DNA from: a virus | DNA length: 34,415 nt | Virus record (IMG/VR): IMGVR_UViG_3300034418_007855 | Coordinates: 1-34,415 of that record | Strand: one strand, 5' to 3' | Part shown: piece by piece, positions 27,737-34,415 of the stretch | Numbering within the stretch: the stretch's first letter is position 1 | Layout: every line of letters starts with the position of its first letter | Notes under the pieces: model-generated | What the model was told of the DNA's origin: nothing | The model's input: the letters and a program-made list of their open reading frames with translations, nothing else | The model's database searches: none | Program-made: the position numbers and the translations under genes

Positions 27737-27769
27737 AAAGGGAGATCGAAAGATCCCCCTTTATTTTTT
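27737..27769. terminator. Bidirectional hairpin terminator between convergent units
   Basis: AAAGGG (27737-27742) and GATC (27744-27747) pair with GATC (27752-27755) and CCCTTT (27757-27762) around a GAAA tetraloop, with one A/C mismatch. Six T follow on the + strand (27764-27769), and an A run before the stem (27734-27739) gives a U tract for - strand transcripts. It begins right after the last + strand gene, and its T tract overlaps the nrdA stop codon. Confidence 0.85.
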
Positions 27770-29537
27770 ATCCGTCACACGATAAGCAATCCGGATCCAT
27801 TGCCTTTGTAGCAATATCTCCCCTTAACACCGATTCGGTTCGCATGTAATACAATGTTTTAATTCCTTTTTTCCAAGCTTCCAAATGAACTTGATTTATC
27901 CATTTAGGCGTAGCCACAGAAGGAAACGCGAGATTCAAAGAAACAGACTGATCAACATACTGCTGGCGAATACCAGCTTGGTTAACGAGCTCGAGCTGAT
28001 TTATCTCTTTGAATGTTTTAAATACATCTTTTATTGTATCAAATCCATACTTCTCAATATCTTCAGCAGACTCAGATAGCTTTACAAGTTTACCTTGTAC
28101 ATATCCGTAATCTTCAAGCTCTGCAATATCTTGAACAGATCCTTTATCTTCTAGTATCTTGTTCCAAGTTTCAATGGTATTAATACCTATCTTTTTGAAG
28201 ACTTTTTCTAACTCTTTATTTTTTCTAATAAATGTTCCTTTAGCAGACTGCTCCGTGAACACGTTCGCAGCCCAAGGTTCTATACCCGGCGATACGTTTC
28301 CAGAAAGTTTTGAATTAGATACCGTGGGTGCAATAGCTCTAAGGTGTGTATTTCTAAACCCTGTATCCCTACACCATAATGGTTCTCCATATACCTCAGC
28401 AAGGTCACGGGAAGCTCTCTCTGATTCAATTTTAAGTTGACTAAAAACGCGTCTTGTTTCAAACTGTGCCTGCATACCCTCAAATGGTATTCCTTTTTGC
28501 TGTAAATAAGTGTGCCATCCCAAAACTCCCAAACCAAGAGCCCTTCCTTTTTCGGCACTACGCACACTATTTTCAAAACCTTTAAGCCCTTTCGCCCGCT
28601 GAATAAACTCTTCAAGTACGCCATCCAAAAACCAAATACTGTGGTATATAAGGTTAGTGTCTTTCCATTCATCATATTTAGCTATATTAACTGAACTAAG
28701 ACAACATACAAAACTATGGTTTTCATCTGTATGTAATGTTATCTCAGAACATATATTTGTCATATGAACTTTAAGTCCGTTGTCTTTGTATGCTCTTGGA
28801 TTACTTTTATTTGTATTTCCTTTAAAAAGGATATAAGGTTCTCCAGTTGCTTTACGTTTTTGTAATAGCTTTCCCCATCGCGTCCTAGCATCAATATCTC
28901 CTTGTTCAAGTCTTCGCATAAACTTATCACCGACCACAGCGCACTGGTGGAGATTGAGCGACTGTCTATTAACGTCACCTTTTGGCTCTCTAATCTCAAG
29001 CCAGTCCAAGAAATCGGGGTGGTCAATATTGATATTAACTGATGCTGCTCCTCGTCGGACAGATCCTTGATTAGTGGCAAGTATAGTTGAATCGTAAATC
29101 TTGCAAAACGGCACCACTCCGTCAGATGTTCCATTGTTTGTTATTTTAGCTCCGGCAGGACGAATCATATTGATGCCTATACCAACTCCCCCACCGTGTT
29201 TAGCTAGTAGCATCATTTCTAAGTTTTTAGCACCAATCTCTTGAATACTATCGCCCACATCAATACCAAAGCATGATATAGGTAATCCTCGATCAGTACC
29301 TGTATTTGAAAGAACTGGCGAAGCTAGATTTAGCCAACCCTTCCATATATAGTCAAAAAATACTTCAGCAAGTTCCGGTTTGTACAACCTTCTAGCAACA
29401 GTTGACGCAACTCGCATATATGCATCTCTTGGGGTTTCCCATGGTAACAAATAACCTCCTATTATCGTTTTTTTATATACATCGGTATCACCCCAAACAG
29501 GATAATCCTCTCCTTTAATCCAATCGTTATTCCACAT
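27768..29537 (-). CDS. nrdA: Ribonucleotide reductase class I, large (alpha) subunit
   Basis: A 589-residue catalytic subunit that reduces ribonucleoside diphosphates to deoxyribonucleotides. Visible catalytic residues: Cys89 (LPISCFG) and Cys278 (VCCLSSVN) as the active-site redox pair, Asn261/Cys263/Glu265 (TNICSEI) as the radical-site triad, the Tyr563/Tyr564 radical-transfer pair (TLYYMRT) and the C-terminal Cys584/Cys587 (CLSC) for re-reduction. The first redox Cys lies far nearer the start than in E. coli NrdA (Cys225), so the N-terminal ATP cone is absent and overall dATP inhibition is probably lost. I chose ATG 29537, four bases after the nrdB stop; in-frame ATGs at 29555 and 29573 are alternatives. 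It is the last gene of the - strand operon. Confidence 0.93.
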   Translation of the reverse strand: MWNNDWIKGEDYPVWGDTDVYKKTIIGGYLLPWETPRDAYMRVASTVARRLYKPELAEVFFDYIWKGWLNLASPVLSNTGTDRGLPISCFGIDVGDSIQEIGAKNLEMMLLAKHGGGVGIGINMIRPAGAKITNNGTSDGVVPFCKIYDSTILATNQGSVRRGAASVNINIDHPDFLDWLEIREPKGDVNRQSLNLHQCAVVGDKFMRRLEQGDIDARTRWGKLLQKRKATGEPYILFKGNTNKSNPRAYKDNGLKVHMTNICSEITLHTDENHSFVCCLSSVNIAKYDEWKDTNLIYHSIWFLDGVLEEFIQRAKGLKGFENSVRSAEKGRALGLGVLGWHTYLQQKGIPFEGMQAQFETRRVFSQLKIESERASRDLAEVYGEPLWCRDTGFRNTHLRAIAPTVSNSKLSGNVSPGIEPWAANVFTEQSAKGTFIRKNKELEKVFKKIGINTIETWNKILEDKGSVQDIAELEDYGYVQGKLVKLSESAEDIEKYGFDTIKDVFKTFKEINQLELVNQAGIRQQYVDQSVSLNLAFPSVATPKWINQVHLEAWKKGIKTLYYMRTESVLRGDIATKAMDPDCLSCDG

Positions 29538-29541
29538 ATTT

Positions 29542-30510
29542 TTAAAATAAATCATCCCAGTCTTCTCCTTCATTTGCTTTAGAATAATCTGTAGGTCTAA
29601 TAGCAAAAAAGTCAGTATGTGTTACTCCTCCAGTTAAATGATAAAACCACTCAAGATTGTCTGCTGCTTTTGAATCGTAATCAAAATATGAGCCAAGACC
29701 ATTGTAGCCTAATTCAACTAATTTTTCATTTAAACGCTTTTTAATAAATTGTTTTAGATCGTATGCTTTTAGGTTTTCGATATCACCCATTTCAAACATC
29801 TTATCTATATAATTCATTTCAGCATCGTGCATAGTTTCAGCAGCCTTTACTACATCGTCATAACATTTAGTTAAAAGTGTAGGATCTTCTTCGCACATGT
29901 GTCTAAATAATTGGCAACCCATTTTACTGTGTAAGCTTTCGTCTCTCACACTCCATTTCATTTGTTGACCAATACCTTTAAGAAGATTACGAAGCTGAAA
30001 ACTATATAACACGGCAAACGCACTATATAAAGAAACACCTTCTGCAAACGCAGAAAATATAGCTAAACTTTTACCAATACCAACACGGTCGTTGTCTTCA
30101 CATGCTACAAGGTTTTCAAATCTTTCCATTGTTGCTGGATCATGTAAGAAAGCCTCAAAGTCATCAAGCCCTAGTGTTTCGTTTAAGTATGAGTAAGCTA
30201 CAGCATGAATAGTTTCTTGACTACCAAACATCATAGCCATTTGTTGTATTTCGTGTTTAGGAAACCAACTAACTACATTTTGTGTCCAGTAATCAGATAC
30301 CGCACACTCTGTCTGCGCAAAACCAAGCAGTATATTACCGACTAAATTCTTTTCAGATTTATTTAATTTTTCGTTCCAGTCTTTAACATCACCAGACATT
30401 GGTATCTCAGTATGCAACCAAAATGCTTGTGCTTGTTTTAGCCAACCTTCTGTATAATAAACTGGATACTCAAAAGGTTTATAGGCTACGCGTTCATCAA
30501 ATAATCCCAT
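29542..30510 (-). CDS. nrdB: Ribonucleotide reductase class I, small (beta) subunit
   Basis: A 322-residue subunit that holds the diiron-tyrosyl radical used by NrdA. The expected metal ligands are present: Asp44 (VKDW), Glu99 and His102 (QETIHAVAY), Glu157 (AEGVSLYS), Glu191 and His194 (RDESLHSK). The radical Tyr is conserved as Tyr106, spaced from Glu99 and His102 exactly as Tyr122 is in E. coli R2, so this is a normal tyrosyl-radical enzyme and not a Tyr-less variant. The C-terminus is acidic (NEGEDWDDLF), as needed for docking to NrdA. The start is two bases after the preceding small gene, and nrdA follows at once, so the two subunits should be made together. Confidence 0.95.
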   Translation of the reverse strand: MGLFDERVAYKPFEYPVYYTEGWLKQAQAFWLHTEIPMSGDVKDWNEKLNKSEKNLVGNILLGFAQTECAVSDYWTQNVVSWFPKHEIQQMAMMFGSQETIHAVAYSYLNETLGLDDFEAFLHDPATMERFENLVACEDNDRVGIGKSLAIFSAFAEGVSLYSAFAVLYSFQLRNLLKGIGQQMKWSVRDESLHSKMGCQLFRHMCEEDPTLLTKCYDDVVKAAETMHDAEMNYIDKMFEMGDIENLKAYDLKQFIKKRLNEKLVELGYNGLGSYFDYDSKAADNLEWFYHLTGGVTHTDFFAIRPTDYSKANEGEDWDDLF

Positions 30511-30786: not shown

Positions 30787-30952
30787 ACACTTTTATGTTA
30801 TAATAATTTTGAACTTCAACTAACTCTTTAAATTTTAAATAGCCTTTTTGATCAATAGAAGACTTAATAAACTTGTCTATTTGTCTTCCTACATAACGAA
30901 GTTTAGCTACTTGTTTTTCGCGTTGAGGATTAGCTCTATTACTCTGTGACAT
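30779..30952 (-). CDS. Small helical protein of unknown function
   Basis: A 57-residue protein (MSQSNRANPQREKQVAKLRY, ending QNYYNIKVYG). It is rich in Lys, Arg and Gln in its first half with a helical centre (VGRQIDKFIKSSIDQKGYLK), no membrane segment and no signal. It starts inside the 3' end of the resolvase gene (46-base overlap, other frame) and its end overlaps the next small gene by eight bases. The full-length open frame filling an otherwise empty stretch, plus the tight overlaps on both sides, support a true gene. Function unknown; a small DNA-binding or regulatory protein is possible. Confidence 0.55.
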   Translation of the reverse strand: MSQSNRANPQREKQVAKLRYVGRQIDKFIKSSIDQKGYLKFKELVEVQNYYNIKVYG

Positions 30953-31359
30953 TCGTCTTGATTTTGTGGTTTGTACAATGTAATATTCGGCATATTTTCT
31001 TGTATATACCTTTTAAATAACTTCCAACGCATAGGAAAAGATTCGTTAGCACGCCCTTTACACTCAATAATAAAGCCATCGCCAACAAAGTCTGGAGTGT
31101 ACTTAACAGGAAGTACACGCTTATTACCGCGATTAGCAAAATCACCTTTACCATTTGACTGCCTTTCATAGCATTTAGACGTAAAATCAAAACCGTTAAG
31201 TAGCGTGTAAGTTTCACCTTCGTATTGTGCGTTTATTTTTGCTGCTTTCAAAGCCATGTACATGTGCCTTTCAAGGCCAGATGCAAAATTAATTCCATCA
31301 TATTTTATCTTTTTAGCTTGTACAGGACCTTTTTTTCTTTGTCTCACTCGTTTCCCCAT
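30907..31359 (-). CDS. T7 endonuclease I-like Holliday junction resolvase
   Basis: A 150-residue PD-(D/E)XK nuclease. The catalytic set matches T7 gp3: Glu30 (FASGLER), Asp90 (KYTPDFVGDG), Glu99 and Lys101 (IIECKGR). The N-terminus is very basic (MGKRVRQRKKGPVQAKKIKY), as expected for DNA binding. T7 endonuclease I resolves branched recombination and replication intermediates before packaging and helps break down host DNA. A DUF1064-type phage nuclease is a close alternative because it shares the motifs. The start overlaps the upstream gene by 16 bases. Motif recognition is firm; substrate choice is inferred from the family. Confidence 0.82.
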   Translation of the reverse strand: MGKRVRQRKKGPVQAKKIKYDGINFASGLERHMYMALKAAKINAQYEGETYTLLNGFDFTSKCYERQSNGKGDFANRGNKRVLPVKYTPDFVGDGFIIECKGRANESFPMRWKLFKRYIQENMPNITLYKPQNQDECHRVIELILNAKNK

Positions 31360-31733
31360 ATTTTGTCATTATCTAGCATATATCCATCATGACTTTCATC
31401 ATAATGCAATCCATCATTTCCATTCTGACCTATAATATCCATACGTTCGTCGTCTTCTTCAAAAGCGTGATTTGAACAAGGGTTGCTGCGTCTTATAATT
31501 TCTTCTTGCCCAAGCTCCGTCAACTCTTCTCTTGCAGCTTGAATATATAAGATTGCATCCATAAGTTCTTCCTGTACATCATTTAAATAACCTAATAAAT
31601 CTTTTTTACCTGATGTACGTTCGTCGTGTAACGTGCTTTTGTATTTTTTAAAACCAACATCAGAACGCTCGACAAATTTATCTACTACACGTTCTACAAC
31701 TGGGTCTCTAAAAGCTATTTCTTTTTTATTCAT
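31344..31733 (-). CDS. Alpha-helical phage protein, MazG-like possible
   Basis: A 129-residue protein. Residues about 9-70 (DPVVERVVDKFVERSDVGFK, then LLGYLNDVQEELMDAILYIQ) match a family widespread in phages and often noted as distantly like all-alpha NTP pyrophosphatases; EELMDA supplies an ExxxD-like acidic helix, but the full MazG motif is not present. The C-terminal 55 residues are acidic and His/Asn/Asp-rich, probably disordered. Its start overlaps the stop of the MazG fusion gene by four bases (ATGA), which suggests coupled translation and perhaps joint work in nucleotide control. No enzymatic activity can be claimed. Confidence 0.6.
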   Translation of the reverse strand: MNKKEIAFRDPVVERVVDKFVERSDVGFKKYKSTLHDERTSGKKDLLGYLNDVQEELMDAILYIQAAREELTELGQEEIIRRSNPCSNHAFEEDDERMDIIGQNGNDGLHYDESHDGYMLDNDKIWGNE

Positions 31734-32569
31734 AATTGCTTTACAAATGTTCCGTTAGACATTTTACCTTTTCTACTTTTAATCACGTTATAAGCTGATG
31801 TGACACAATCCTCAATATCAACACCAACGAATACTGCAAGGTTAGTAAGCACAACAACCATATCGCCAATTGCATCAACGGCTTCTTCTTTGTTTTGTTT
31901 AAGTATAGCTTGAGCAAGCTCTCCGGCTTCTTCCATAAGTTTAACATACTGCGTTTTTTCATCTCCTTTGTCATATATACCACGTTCATCTGCCCATTGT
32001 CTGATTAATGGAAATATATCCCTCATCGACGGGCCAATAGTAGACTTATCCGGCATCGTTAGACCCCCTATAAGGGACTTTTCATCATTGAACTGATCCA
32101 TAAGAGTTCCCTGAATAAAAGCCTCATAAAAAGCCTTATTATATATGTAGCAACGATCTGGTGTATATTGTGATCTGAATATATTGCTTATTATCCAGCG
32201 ATTAGCTTCTTCTGTTAACTCAAAATGACCTAGATGCGTTGTCCAGGTATGACCTAAGTTTTCTTGTAAGAAAGCAGGAAGATCATCTATTGAAACAGGA
32301 AACGTCGTTGTTTGTTCTGTTGCATTTAATTTCATTTCTTTATTATTTAGATTTTTATATAGTTTACGATCTACTTTATAACCATACATCTGTTGAAGCT
32401 CTATTTCTTTAACTGAAACCTCATCTATATCTTCTGTTGTAAGAAGTATTTCATATTGGTTAGGTTTATATCCTTGCTGCTGCTCAACTCTCAACCTGGG
32501 GTTGGTTGTCACACCAACTTTCTGGCCTGGTATATGGTAAATATAATATTTTTTATTAGAGTCTGTCAT
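31730..32569 (-). CDS. GIY-YIG-like / MazG pyrophosphohydrolase fusion protein
   Basis: A 279-residue protein with three parts. Residues 5-70 look like a GIY-YIG domain: YYIYH (8-12), KVGVT (17-21), Arg25/Arg27 and Glu55/Glu57. Residues about 85-180 form a linker domain I do not recognise. Residues about 205-275 are a MazG-type all-alpha NTP pyrophosphohydrolase with EEAGE (213-217) and EAVDAIGD (229-236), the EExxE...ExxD magnesium site. MazG enzymes cut (d)NTPs to monophosphates. I chose ATG 32569 (MTDSNKKYYIYH); a longer TTG frame from 32617 lies inside the preceding gene. It overlaps the neighbours by 14 and 4 bases. The MazG call is firm; nuclease activity of the first domain is inferred. 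Confidence 0.75.
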   Translation of the reverse strand: MTDSNKKYYIYHIPGQKVGVTTNPRLRVEQQQGYKPNQYEILLTTEDIDEVSVKEIELQQMYGYKVDRKLYKNLNNKEMKLNATEQTTTFPVSIDDLPAFLQENLGHTWTTHLGHFELTEEANRWIISNIFRSQYTPDRCYIYNKAFYEAFIQGTLMDQFNDEKSLIGGLTMPDKSTIGPSMRDIFPLIRQWADERGIYDKGDEKTQYVKLMEEAGELAQAILKQNKEEAVDAIGDMVVVLTNLAVFVGVDIEDCVTSAYNVIKSRKGKMSNGTFVKQL

Positions 32570-33215
32570 TGTATAGGTGTAAATTGTTAACAAAGTGATA
32601 GTATTGACCAACGTCAATAGACAGCCTCTGAGCTACAAGTTGTTGTAGCTTTGAAAAGCAATACTGGTCATTAGGAAAACCGTACCATAAATCATTGGAA
32701 CGCATCATAACGGACATGTAGAGTTTATTGTCCATTATATAAAAATTCACGGCATAAGTACAGGGCGTATCAAAAGCATAATCAATATTTTCTTTGGCAT
32801 CATAGATGCTTATAGAGGCTTGCCGTGTTTGCGGATCGCGTTCAAGAAGATTAATTACATATTCAAGTTGATTATTACGTCTCCATTGTGATCCGTAATT
32901 AGAATTTACGCGCCCATTTTCGTCAGCCATACGCTGCCAAATAGCTGGCACTTTTCCGTATATTTCACCAAGAGTAGAAAGCCTATTGTCACCCGATAAA
33001 TACCACTTCCATTCAGCGTCAGCATACTTTTGGTTCCAAGGTCTATTGCGATGATAAACAACATTGTCCAATGGATTTTCAATCCAAAAACCTATATTAA
33101 ATAAAGCTTTTGTGTTTTGAAATTCAATACCGCTGTGTTTAATAATTTCAAGCCAGTATTCAAACGCGTGAGTTGCATTTTCAAAGTTCGTCCTCAGGTC
33201 TATATTTGTTTGCAT
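32556..33215 (-). CDS. Thymidylate synthase-family enzyme, possibly dCMP hydroxymethylase
   Basis: A 219-residue protein of the thymidylate synthase/dCMP hydroxymethylase family, which transfers a one-carbon unit from methylene-tetrahydrofolate to C5 of a pyrimidine nucleotide. Visible: YGSQWR (equivalent of E. coli YGKQWR), catalytic Cys152 in DTPCT, Arg172-Ser173-Asn174-Asp175 of the phosphate site, and HLY at 213-215. The position of the uracil-reading Asn (E. coli Asn177, in GLPFN) aligns with Asp183 in GFPND; T4 dCMP hydroxymethylase also has Asp there. dCMP is therefore a plausible substrate. The chain is shorter than bacterial ThyA (264). I chose ATG 33215; the longer frame starts at a TTG. 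It overlaps the upstream gene by 35 bases. Confidence 0.78.
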   Translation of the reverse strand: MQTNIDLRTNFENATHAFEYWLEIIKHSGIEFQNTKALFNIGFWIENPLDNVVYHRNRPWNQKYADAEWKWYLSGDNRLSTLGEIYGKVPAIWQRMADENGRVNSNYGSQWRRNNQLEYVINLLERDPQTRQASISIYDAKENIDYAFDTPCTYAVNFYIMDNKLYMSVMMRSNDLWYGFPNDQYCFSKLQQLVAQRLSIDVGQYYHFVNNLHLYNDRL

Positions 33216-33463: not shown

Positions 33464-34415
33464 TTATTCCCAAGGCATTGCTTCGTTTTCTATTAATACA
33501 GGTTCATGCGGTATAAAACATCCAGACTTAGGTTCCCATTTGAAATGAGCTTCAGCTCCGTTCTCACCTAAGTTTTGAAACTTAACTTTAAGCACTTTTG
33601 CTTTAACGGTTTTAGCTTCATAGTCACGATGAACCAGTATACCGTGGTAAGATGCGTCGTACCATTCACCTCCACCCTTGATGTTATACATTGTGGGCTC
33701 TTCAATTTGGCCATCTTTGTCTTTGTACATTTTAGTTGGGTGTGCTACTACTATAACTAAAACATCGTATTTCTTGCAGAAGGTTTCAATTTTAGTTAAG
33801 TATTCCATTGTATACCTGTTAACGTCTTCTGTTTTAGCATCAACGTCTCTTATTTTGTTGAAGGGATCAATAACTAAGCATTTGATACCTTTTCGTTTTA
33901 CGAGTTCAGCTCCTTTTCTAAGGACCGCTTCCAACGAATAACGGTCCATATCAATGAAATAAAAATTATCATTTATATGTGTTTTTACCTGTTCCCATTT
34001 ATCATTTCCAATATCTGCTTTGCTTGGCATTCCTTCCCACAGTTTTCTAAAGAGCTTGTGTGCGTGTAAGTAAGTAGGTGCATTTTCTGGAGAAGCAAAC
34101 GCTGTTTTCCAACCATATAGTTTATTATACCCAACAACCATCTGATCGACAAAATCACTTTTACCGGAAGAAGGAATACCAGTGACAGTAATAAACTGAC
34201 CAGTATAAGTCGAAAAGATACGATCAAAGTTATCAAGACCAACTTGATATCCAGGCTTAAAACCGTTATTGACGAAATCAACGATCTCGTGCTCGATGTC
34301 TTTAAATGTTGTAACATTCTCAAGCGGGACTGGTTTGGCGGTTGATATATGCTCTGCCAGTTTTTGTTTTCCATACTTTTGTAAATAATCGTTTGCGTCT
34401 TTGACGTCGTCGAAA
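33464..34415 (-). CDS. Primase-helicase (T7 gp4/Twinkle-like), C-terminal part (5' end outside window)
   Basis: A partial gene of at least 317 residues entering from the right edge. The first residues (FDDVKDANDYLQKYG) resemble the end of a Toprim primase domain, so the full protein is probably primase plus helicase. The RecA-like helicase core follows: a glycine loop Walker A, GIPSSGKS, at 34157-34180; Walker B-like CLVIDPFNKI near 33853-33880; and VLVIVVAHPTK as a later core strand. It would unwind DNA at the phage fork as a hexamer. The ATG at 34141 is internal, since the frame stays open to the window edge and the Walker A motif lies before it. It heads the visible - strand operon. Confidence 0.85.
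   Translation of the reverse strand, partial: FDDVKDANDYLQKYGKQKLAEHISTAKPVPLENVTTFKDIEHEIVDFVNNGFKPGYQVGLDNFDRIFSTYTGQFITVTGIPSSGKSDFVDQMVVGYNKLYGWKTAFASPENAPTYLHAHKLFRKLWEGMPSKADIGNDKWEQVKTHINDNFYFIDMDRYSLEAVLRKGAELVKRKGIKCLVIDPFNKIRDVDAKTEDVNRYTMEYLTKIETFCKKYDVLVIVVAHPTKMYKDKDGQIEEPTMYNIKGGGEWYDASYHGILVHRDYEAKTVKAKVLKVKFQNLGENGAEAHFKWEPKSGCFIPHEPVLIENEAMPWE

Follow-up and report, generated by a model that had tools for sequence, protein, structure and literature searches.

Gene content and likely host

The window, by which we mean the whole stretch of 34,415 bases analysed here, is an IMG/VR virus record. The carrier of the gene at the centre of this analysis, a thymidylate synthase (TS)-fold gene termed dCH below, is a virus of marine or aquatic bacteria. 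The first 20 kb of the window showed no match to named phages at the DNA level. At the protein level, the relatives of the portal protein are all phages of Flavobacterium, Cellulophaga, Maribacter and Tenacibaculum, together with one metagenomic podovirus, and a flavobacterial host is therefore likely. The gene run around dCH reads as follows.

27768..30510, minus strand: presumed ribonucleotide reductase genes, large subunit 27768-29606 and small subunit 29542-30510 (read from sequence)
30907..31359, minus strand: DUF1064 / phage endonuclease I-like nuclease, same gene run (PF06356 4e-8; phrog_190 Holliday junction resolvase 2e-12)
31344..31733, minus strand: phrog_11184 protein, a conserved gene after the fusion gene (profile match, conservation)
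31730..32569, minus strand: GIY-YIG-MazG fusion protein, 279 aa from the ATG, start at 32569 (Pfam, conserved residues, predicted secondary structure)
32556..33215, minus strand: probable dCMP hydroxymethylase (dCH) of the TS superfamily, 219 aa from the ATG (PF00303, residue signature, predicted model)
33464..34414, minus strand: primase-helicase, C-terminal part, continuing beyond the window edge; upstream neighbour of dCH (phrog_239 3e-44)

We take the genes at 27768..30510 (minus strand) to be the two ribonucleotide reductase subunits, likely serving dNTP supply. The long relatives that we examined are G002 (68.5 kb, near-identical to the window), G004 (68.7 kb), G006 (70.2 kb) and G007 (59.3 kb); reductase orthologues are present in G004, G006 and G007. 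The conserved phrog_11184 protein (31344-31733, minus strand), whose gene adjoins the fusion gene, has 95-129 aa across relatives, and its KKYG...QEEhMDA motifs resemble a second MazG-like pyrophosphatase, for which it is a candidate only.

The active site of the TS-fold protein

The dCH reading frame matches the Pfam family Thymidylat_synt (PF00303) with an E-value of 9e-26. The ternary structure of T4 dCH has provided marks of a dCMP hydroxymethylase, namely Asp179, the lack of the C-terminal tail, an acidic residue (Asp or Glu) at position -3 relative to the catalytic Cys and a Ser or Thr two residues before a Tyr (PMC6400193). The corresponding codons in the window are the following.

32667..32669, minus strand: Asp183 (T4 Asp179, E. 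coli TS Asn177), the cytosine-reading residue (alignments; role PMC6400193, PMC8670742)
32760..32771, minus strand: Asp149-Thr-Pro-Cys152, with the water-activating Asp (T4 Asp145) and the catalytic Cys (T4 Cys148) (residue alignment; role PMC6400193)
32895..32903, minus strand: Ser105-Asn-Tyr107 (T4 Ser94-Asn-Tyr96), hydroxymethylase signature (residue alignment; role PMC6400193)

As the initial annotation had stated, Asp183 stands where TS has Asn (Asn177 of the E. coli enzyme, 2tsc), and T4 dCMP hydroxymethylase shows the same change at Asp179 of gp42. The Asp at this position is found in 26 of 26 distinct IMG/VR homologues, across which Asp149, Cys152, Ser105-x-Tyr107, Trp93 and Asp175 are also invariant wherever covered, and the catalytic Glu68 is kept in all 25 that are long enough to include its position. 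The window protein further has the folate-site residues Glu68, Trp93 and Asp175, and it stops at HLYNDRL, just before the C-terminal tail of TS, which is absent.

With T4 gp42 (PDB 1b49/6a9a) it shares the fold, the Cys nucleophile, the short C-terminus and the counterparts of Asp179, Asp145, Ser94-x-Tyr96, Glu60, Trp82 and Asp171; in these alignments, its active site is a residue-for-residue match to that of the T4 enzyme. The two proteins are 34% identical over 172 aa and differ at T4 Arg177, which is Pro in the window, and at T4 Arg124, the second phosphate-binding Arg, which is Gln132 in the window and His or Arg in other homologues. The CMP hydroxymethylase MilA (PDB 5jnh/5b6d) is among the nearest PDB folds and has the same Asp and Thr around the Cys, but it acts on CMP and carries Lys133 and Ala176, whereas the window protein has Arg131 and Ser173, the pair of the dCMP type (Arg/Ser versus Lys/Ala; PMC6400193). 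Judged by these residues, the window gene very probably encodes a folate-dependent dCMP 5-hydroxymethylase. The initial annotation had spoken more broadly of a cytosine-type (Asp) enzyme, which holds with greater precision than was claimed, as the residues point to hydroxymethylation and not to methylation.

The closest named relatives, at about 46-47% identity and with the full signature, are the proteins annotated as "deoxycytidylate 5-hydroxymethyltransferase" in the Bacteroides fragilis phages BF503P2 and BF486P2. Their gene cluster includes a carbamoyltransferase, an AAA_28 nucleotide kinase-like gene, a dUTPase, PolA and a second dCH-like gene, and is without PRA-PH.

A probable GIY-YIG-MazG fusion protein adjoins dCH

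Of the MazG and GIY-YIG domains that the initial annotation had placed next to dCH, the former is present and the latter is probable, with weaker matches; they are not two proteins but lie in a single open reading frame from the ATG at 32569, and this gene (31730-32569) shares 14 nt with dCH.

32345..32551, minus strand: GIY-YIG-like (T5orf172/MUG113) N-terminal domain, residues ~7-75 (weak Pfam matches, invariant residues, predicted fold)
31733..32020, minus strand: MazG / all-alpha NTP pyrophosphohydrolase C-terminal domain, residues ~184-279 (PRA-PH and MazG above cut-off; invariant motif)

The MazG domain matches PRA-PH (4e-7) and MazG (6e-5) above the curated cut-offs in the window protein, is detected in 19 of 19 homologues, and has an invariant metal-binding motif (ExxE...ExxD) formed by E214xxE217 and E229xxD232. 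Its best sequence match is the Sulfolobus MazG 1vmg. A Foldseek search with the fusion model placed mammalian dCTP pyrophosphatase (DCTPP1) on top, at a weak E-value of 6e-3; further MazG proteins and HisE proteins scored nearly as well. In a VIA search with the same model, DCTPP1 was not among the top rows, which were filled by unrelated helical proteins and gave no information on the GIY-YIG half. Profile comparison with T4 gp56 gave no similarity.

The gene pair is conserved well beyond the window's own group. All 16 related IMG/VR contigs in the search have PRA-PH/MazG, and a MazG gene comes after dCH in 27 of the 28 loci in which the sequence extends far enough (26 directly and one, L007, by way of its parent contig, in which the gene is broken into two frames); L012 is without MazG beside dCH, and L017, whose sequence ends too early, was left out of the count. 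In many distant relatives, ~290 nt lie between the two genes, enough for one small ORF. The MazG gene stands alone, without GIY-YIG, in L011, L014, L015 and L016, which makes MazG the constant and GIY-YIG the optional part of the arrangement.

The initial annotation had MazG supplying dCMP from dCTP. This is plausible in the light of the near-universal adjacency to dCH, with dCTP as substrate being a prediction, and we regard a role of the MazG domain as dCMP supplier of dCH as reasonably likely on these sequence data. Its competitor, to which we give a smaller but real chance, is a general house-cleaning dNTP pyrophosphatase that sits beside dCH for operon convenience and not as part of a pathway: MazG-like domains occur widely in phages, with matches in 1030 phage records, and the MazG substrate residues are not diagnostic. 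Against house-cleaning stand the adjacency in the 27 of 28 loci, which holds for dCH proteins down to 46-48% identity, and the co-occurrence of TS and PRA-PH in cytosine-modified contigs (PMC8670742).

That co-occurrence, together with TS carrying Asp177, was found associated with cytosine-modified contigs in sewage and coastal phage DNA (PMC8670742), so that the connection of this gene pair with modified cytosine is on record in the literature. The MetaGPA network of that study and the window share the PF00303-PF01503 pair, Asp177 and the connection to cytosine-modified phage DNA; the network is joined to carbamoyltransferase and dCMP deaminase, whereas in the window MazG is fused to GIY-YIG and no carbamoyltransferase was found. 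Thus neither the kind of enzyme, nor its residue logic, nor the pairing of TS with PRA-PH is new, and the reading of the window's dCH and MazG genes as a member of a known anti-restriction strategy is well supported by the sequence comparisons.

For the GIY-YIG half, the T5orf172 match of the window protein (0.002-0.006) is under the Pfam cut-off, and 13 of 19 homologues match T5orf172 and 11 of 19 MUG113. Y9, Y11, G19, R27 and E55 are invariant and the predicted secondary structure is beta-beta-alpha-beta-alpha; a nuclease is probable. The initial annotation had likened the domain to T4 endonuclease II (DenA). This comparison gained no support: the two have at most the GIY-YIG superfamily in common, no profile similarity was detected (hhalign probability 0.4%, not significant), the window domain is fused to MazG, and some relatives have MazG without GIY-YIG. 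That the domain would be a nuclease directed against cytosine-containing DNA is accordingly doubtful. Equally speculative is the more ambitious proposal that both halves of the chain work together as one discrimination enzyme, in which the nuclease would destroy C-containing host DNA and the pyrophosphatase would make dCMP from dCTP for the overlapping dCH, the 5-hydroxymethylcytosine (5hmC) of the window lineage being bare or decorated by an enzyme yet to be recognised. If true, one two-gene unit would cover the functions of T4 denA, gene 56 and gene 42. A limited literature search found no description of the GIY-YIG-MazG fusion or of the swap pairs described below.

A swappable glycosyltransferase slot in distant relatives

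Distant relatives (46-57% identity) differ in the gene immediately upstream of dCH, which falls into several unrelated transferase-like types. The occupants of this slot in L022 and L017 match the DNA alpha-glucosyltransferase family PF11440 (E 1e-16 and 3e-15), and that of L029 matches the phage beta-glucosyltransferase phrog_7922 (1e-16). Three more types of 345, 440 and 713 aa belong to no family of known function and have no Pfam match; the 345-aa gene showed no significant similarity to the beta-glucosyltransferase (beta-GT) profile. These three types are candidate new DNA-decorating enzymes.

Two pairs of contigs are near-identical except at the slot. L022 and L032 have flanks of 98.3% and 96.2% identity and a different gene upstream of dCH (L022:3088-4290, alpha-glucosyltransferase (AGT)-like, versus L032:8822-9856, 345-aa type). 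L023 and L024 have flanks of 95.1% and 97.8% and an identical dCH protein, and their upstream genes differ (L023:7290-8612, 440-aa type, versus L024:7260-8303, beta-GT-like). As read from these sequences, the position directly upstream of dCH in the distant relatives is a swappable glycosyltransferase slot. A portable dCH-MazG pair is thereby defined together with its exchangeable neighbour, and near-identical genomes that differ only at the slot could offer a way to study the role of the 5hmC sugar against host defences.

Beyond these contigs, beta-GT genes adjoin dCH homologues in Enterococcus phage VPE25 and Lactobacillus phage ATCCB, and the B. fragilis phages have theirs in a cluster with a carbamoyltransferase. 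In T4, glucosyl decorations use 5hmC as acceptor. Carbamoyltransferase is the known route to 5hmC carbamoylation, and glucosyl and carbamoyl decorations both require a 5hmC acceptor (PMC8670742). Because decoration genes adjoin dCH in relatives, the slot strongly supports 5hmC as the predicted product of dCH.

Alternative chemistries of the TS-fold protein

The predicted dCH model (pLDDT 86) finds MilA, T4 dCH, TS and the flavin-dependent dCMP hydroxylase 9iqc in the PDB, with nearly equal similarity to each. Aligned to T4 dCH it gives Z 21.0, rmsd 2.3 and 201 aligned residues (VIA), and the top VIA matches are 9iqc/9iqu (Z 24.7/24.3), with which MilA (Z 23.9) is tied. The fold ranking thus does not separate hydroxymethylase from flavin hydroxylase, and the residues have to decide.

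Improbable, but the best placed of the alternatives, is a dCMP methylase that would use the same Asp to make 5-methyl-dCMP, with 5mC in the DNA as in phage Xp12. The change of Asn177 to Asp alone converts TS into a dCMP methylase, according to the citation of Liu and Santi 1992 in PMC8670742. The window protein, however, has the water-activating Asp149 and Ser105-x-Tyr107, which are the hydroxymethylation signature of PMC6400193; it replaces Trp83 and Leu143 of E. coli TS by Met96 and Asp149; and its C-terminal tail is missing. Moreover, the DNA glucosyltransferases that adjoin dCH in relatives require a hydroxyl acceptor.

Still less probable is an enzyme of the kind of the RB69/Mosigvirus 5-hydroxy-dCMP synthase, a dCMP 5-hydroxylase that depends on flavin and would give 5-hydroxycytosine. 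The Mosigvirus route to 5-hydroxy-dCMP employs a TS-superfamily homologue of the hydroxymethylase (PMC13390438), and the common TS fold, the Asp that reads dCMP and the best VIA match, tied with MilA, are in keeping with such an enzyme. In the one flavin enzyme compared, RB69 ORF048 (near-identical to 9iqc), Phe replaces the catalytic Glu, the folate-site Trp is missing, and Thr, Glu and Asn stand for Ser94, Asp145 and the pterin Asp, whereas all folate residues are retained in the window protein. Sequence similarity is also lower to RB69 ORF048 (26%, E 3e-15) than to T4 dCH (34%, E 2e-18). A second, divergent TS-fold protein is encoded by gene 36 of Bacteroides phage BF503P2 (L002:34973-35779); it has the Asp179 and Asp145 equivalents, shares with the RB69 5-hydroxy-dCMP synthase the lack of the catalytic Glu and the folate-site Trp, and adjoins the carbamoyltransferase and AAA_28 kinase-like genes.

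The slimmest chance falls to an ordinary TS or dUMP hydroxymethylase in which Asp183 is irrelevant and which serves dTMP supply beside ribonucleotide reductase, as the generic annotation of many homologues as thymidylate synthase and the nearby reductase genes might suggest, because the Asp and the rest of the dCH signature are invariant in 26 of 26 homologues, the Asn177 and folate-sealing C-terminal tail of TS are both lacking in the window protein, and a MazG gene is the constant neighbour.

A putative route to 5-hydroxymethylcytosine

From the sequence, the signature residues, the synteny and the slot swapping we infer the following enzyme activities and DNA state, preferring dCMP hydroxymethylation. 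By analogy with the T4 mechanism, Cys152 would attack C6 of dCMP, with Asp183 as the residue that reads the cytosine and donates a proton to it; methylene-THF would provide the carbon, and water activated by Asp149 would complete 5-hydroxymethyl-dCMP. The adjoining MazG domain would most likely convert dCTP, and possibly other dNTPs, to dCMP, thereby both feeding dCH and draining the pool of unmodified dCTP. A kinase of the host, or an unrecognised one, would then phosphorylate the 5-hydroxymethyl-dCMP, and a host or likewise unrecognised polymerase would incorporate it, yielding phage DNA with 5hmC and resistance to restriction. In distant relatives, the DNA glycosyltransferase encoded immediately upstream of dCH would act on this base, and in the window group 5hmC may carry no decoration, or one added by an unrecognised enzyme. 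Taken as a whole, a pathway in which dCH makes 5-hydroxymethyl-dCMP, MazG feeds it with dCMP and the phage DNA carries 5hmC appears likely.

The description of the locus as a compact counterpart of the T4 system, given in the initial annotation, is incomplete for the window's own group; glucosyltransferases adjoin dCH in relatives. A DNMK-type dNMP kinase (gp1, PF21448) was found in none of 18 records, which include near-full-length relatives of 68-70 kb; the contigs may be incomplete, and the search addressed the PF21448 type, so that other kinases may be present. The contigs of the window group, possibly incomplete, also contain no family A DNA polymerase (PolA), no recognisable T4-type alpha- or beta-glucosyltransferase (AGT, beta-GT), no GT2 and no carbamoyltransferase, and their only cytidylyltransferase is a CMP-sugar gene in G006. 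With neither a DNMK kinase nor a family A polymerase found, the phage would need the host, or enzymes that escaped recognition, for phosphorylation and incorporation. The slot upstream of dCH is taken in this group by the primase-helicase and a 93-aa ORF; dCH thus has no beta-GT neighbour but a MazG neighbour, in place of which T4 has the distant gene 56. The primase-helicase and an exonuclease are common to G002, G004, G006 and G007, and an Erf-like annealing protein and an ATP-dependent ligase-like protein are present in G004, G006 and G007.

A limited literature search for 5hmC in Bacteroidetes phages returned no report. 5hmC-type modification is best known from T4-like coliphages; with this pathway it would reach phages whose closest named relatives, by portal protein, infect Flavobacteriia.

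Two further gene groups were observed in the long relatives. Among the tail-region genes of G002, the window's near-identical longer contig, lies a gene for a protein with a 2OG-Fe(II) oxygenase domain (L033:8892-9698). By the ribonucleotide reductase of G006, and in this one relative only, runs a series of genes (L039:15136-19960) for a KdsA-like DAHP synthetase-family enzyme, a CMP-sugar cytidylyltransferase, a cupin, a JmjC-like protein, a methyltransferase and two unassigned proteins, possibly transferases; this run could decorate either 5hmC or the host surface.
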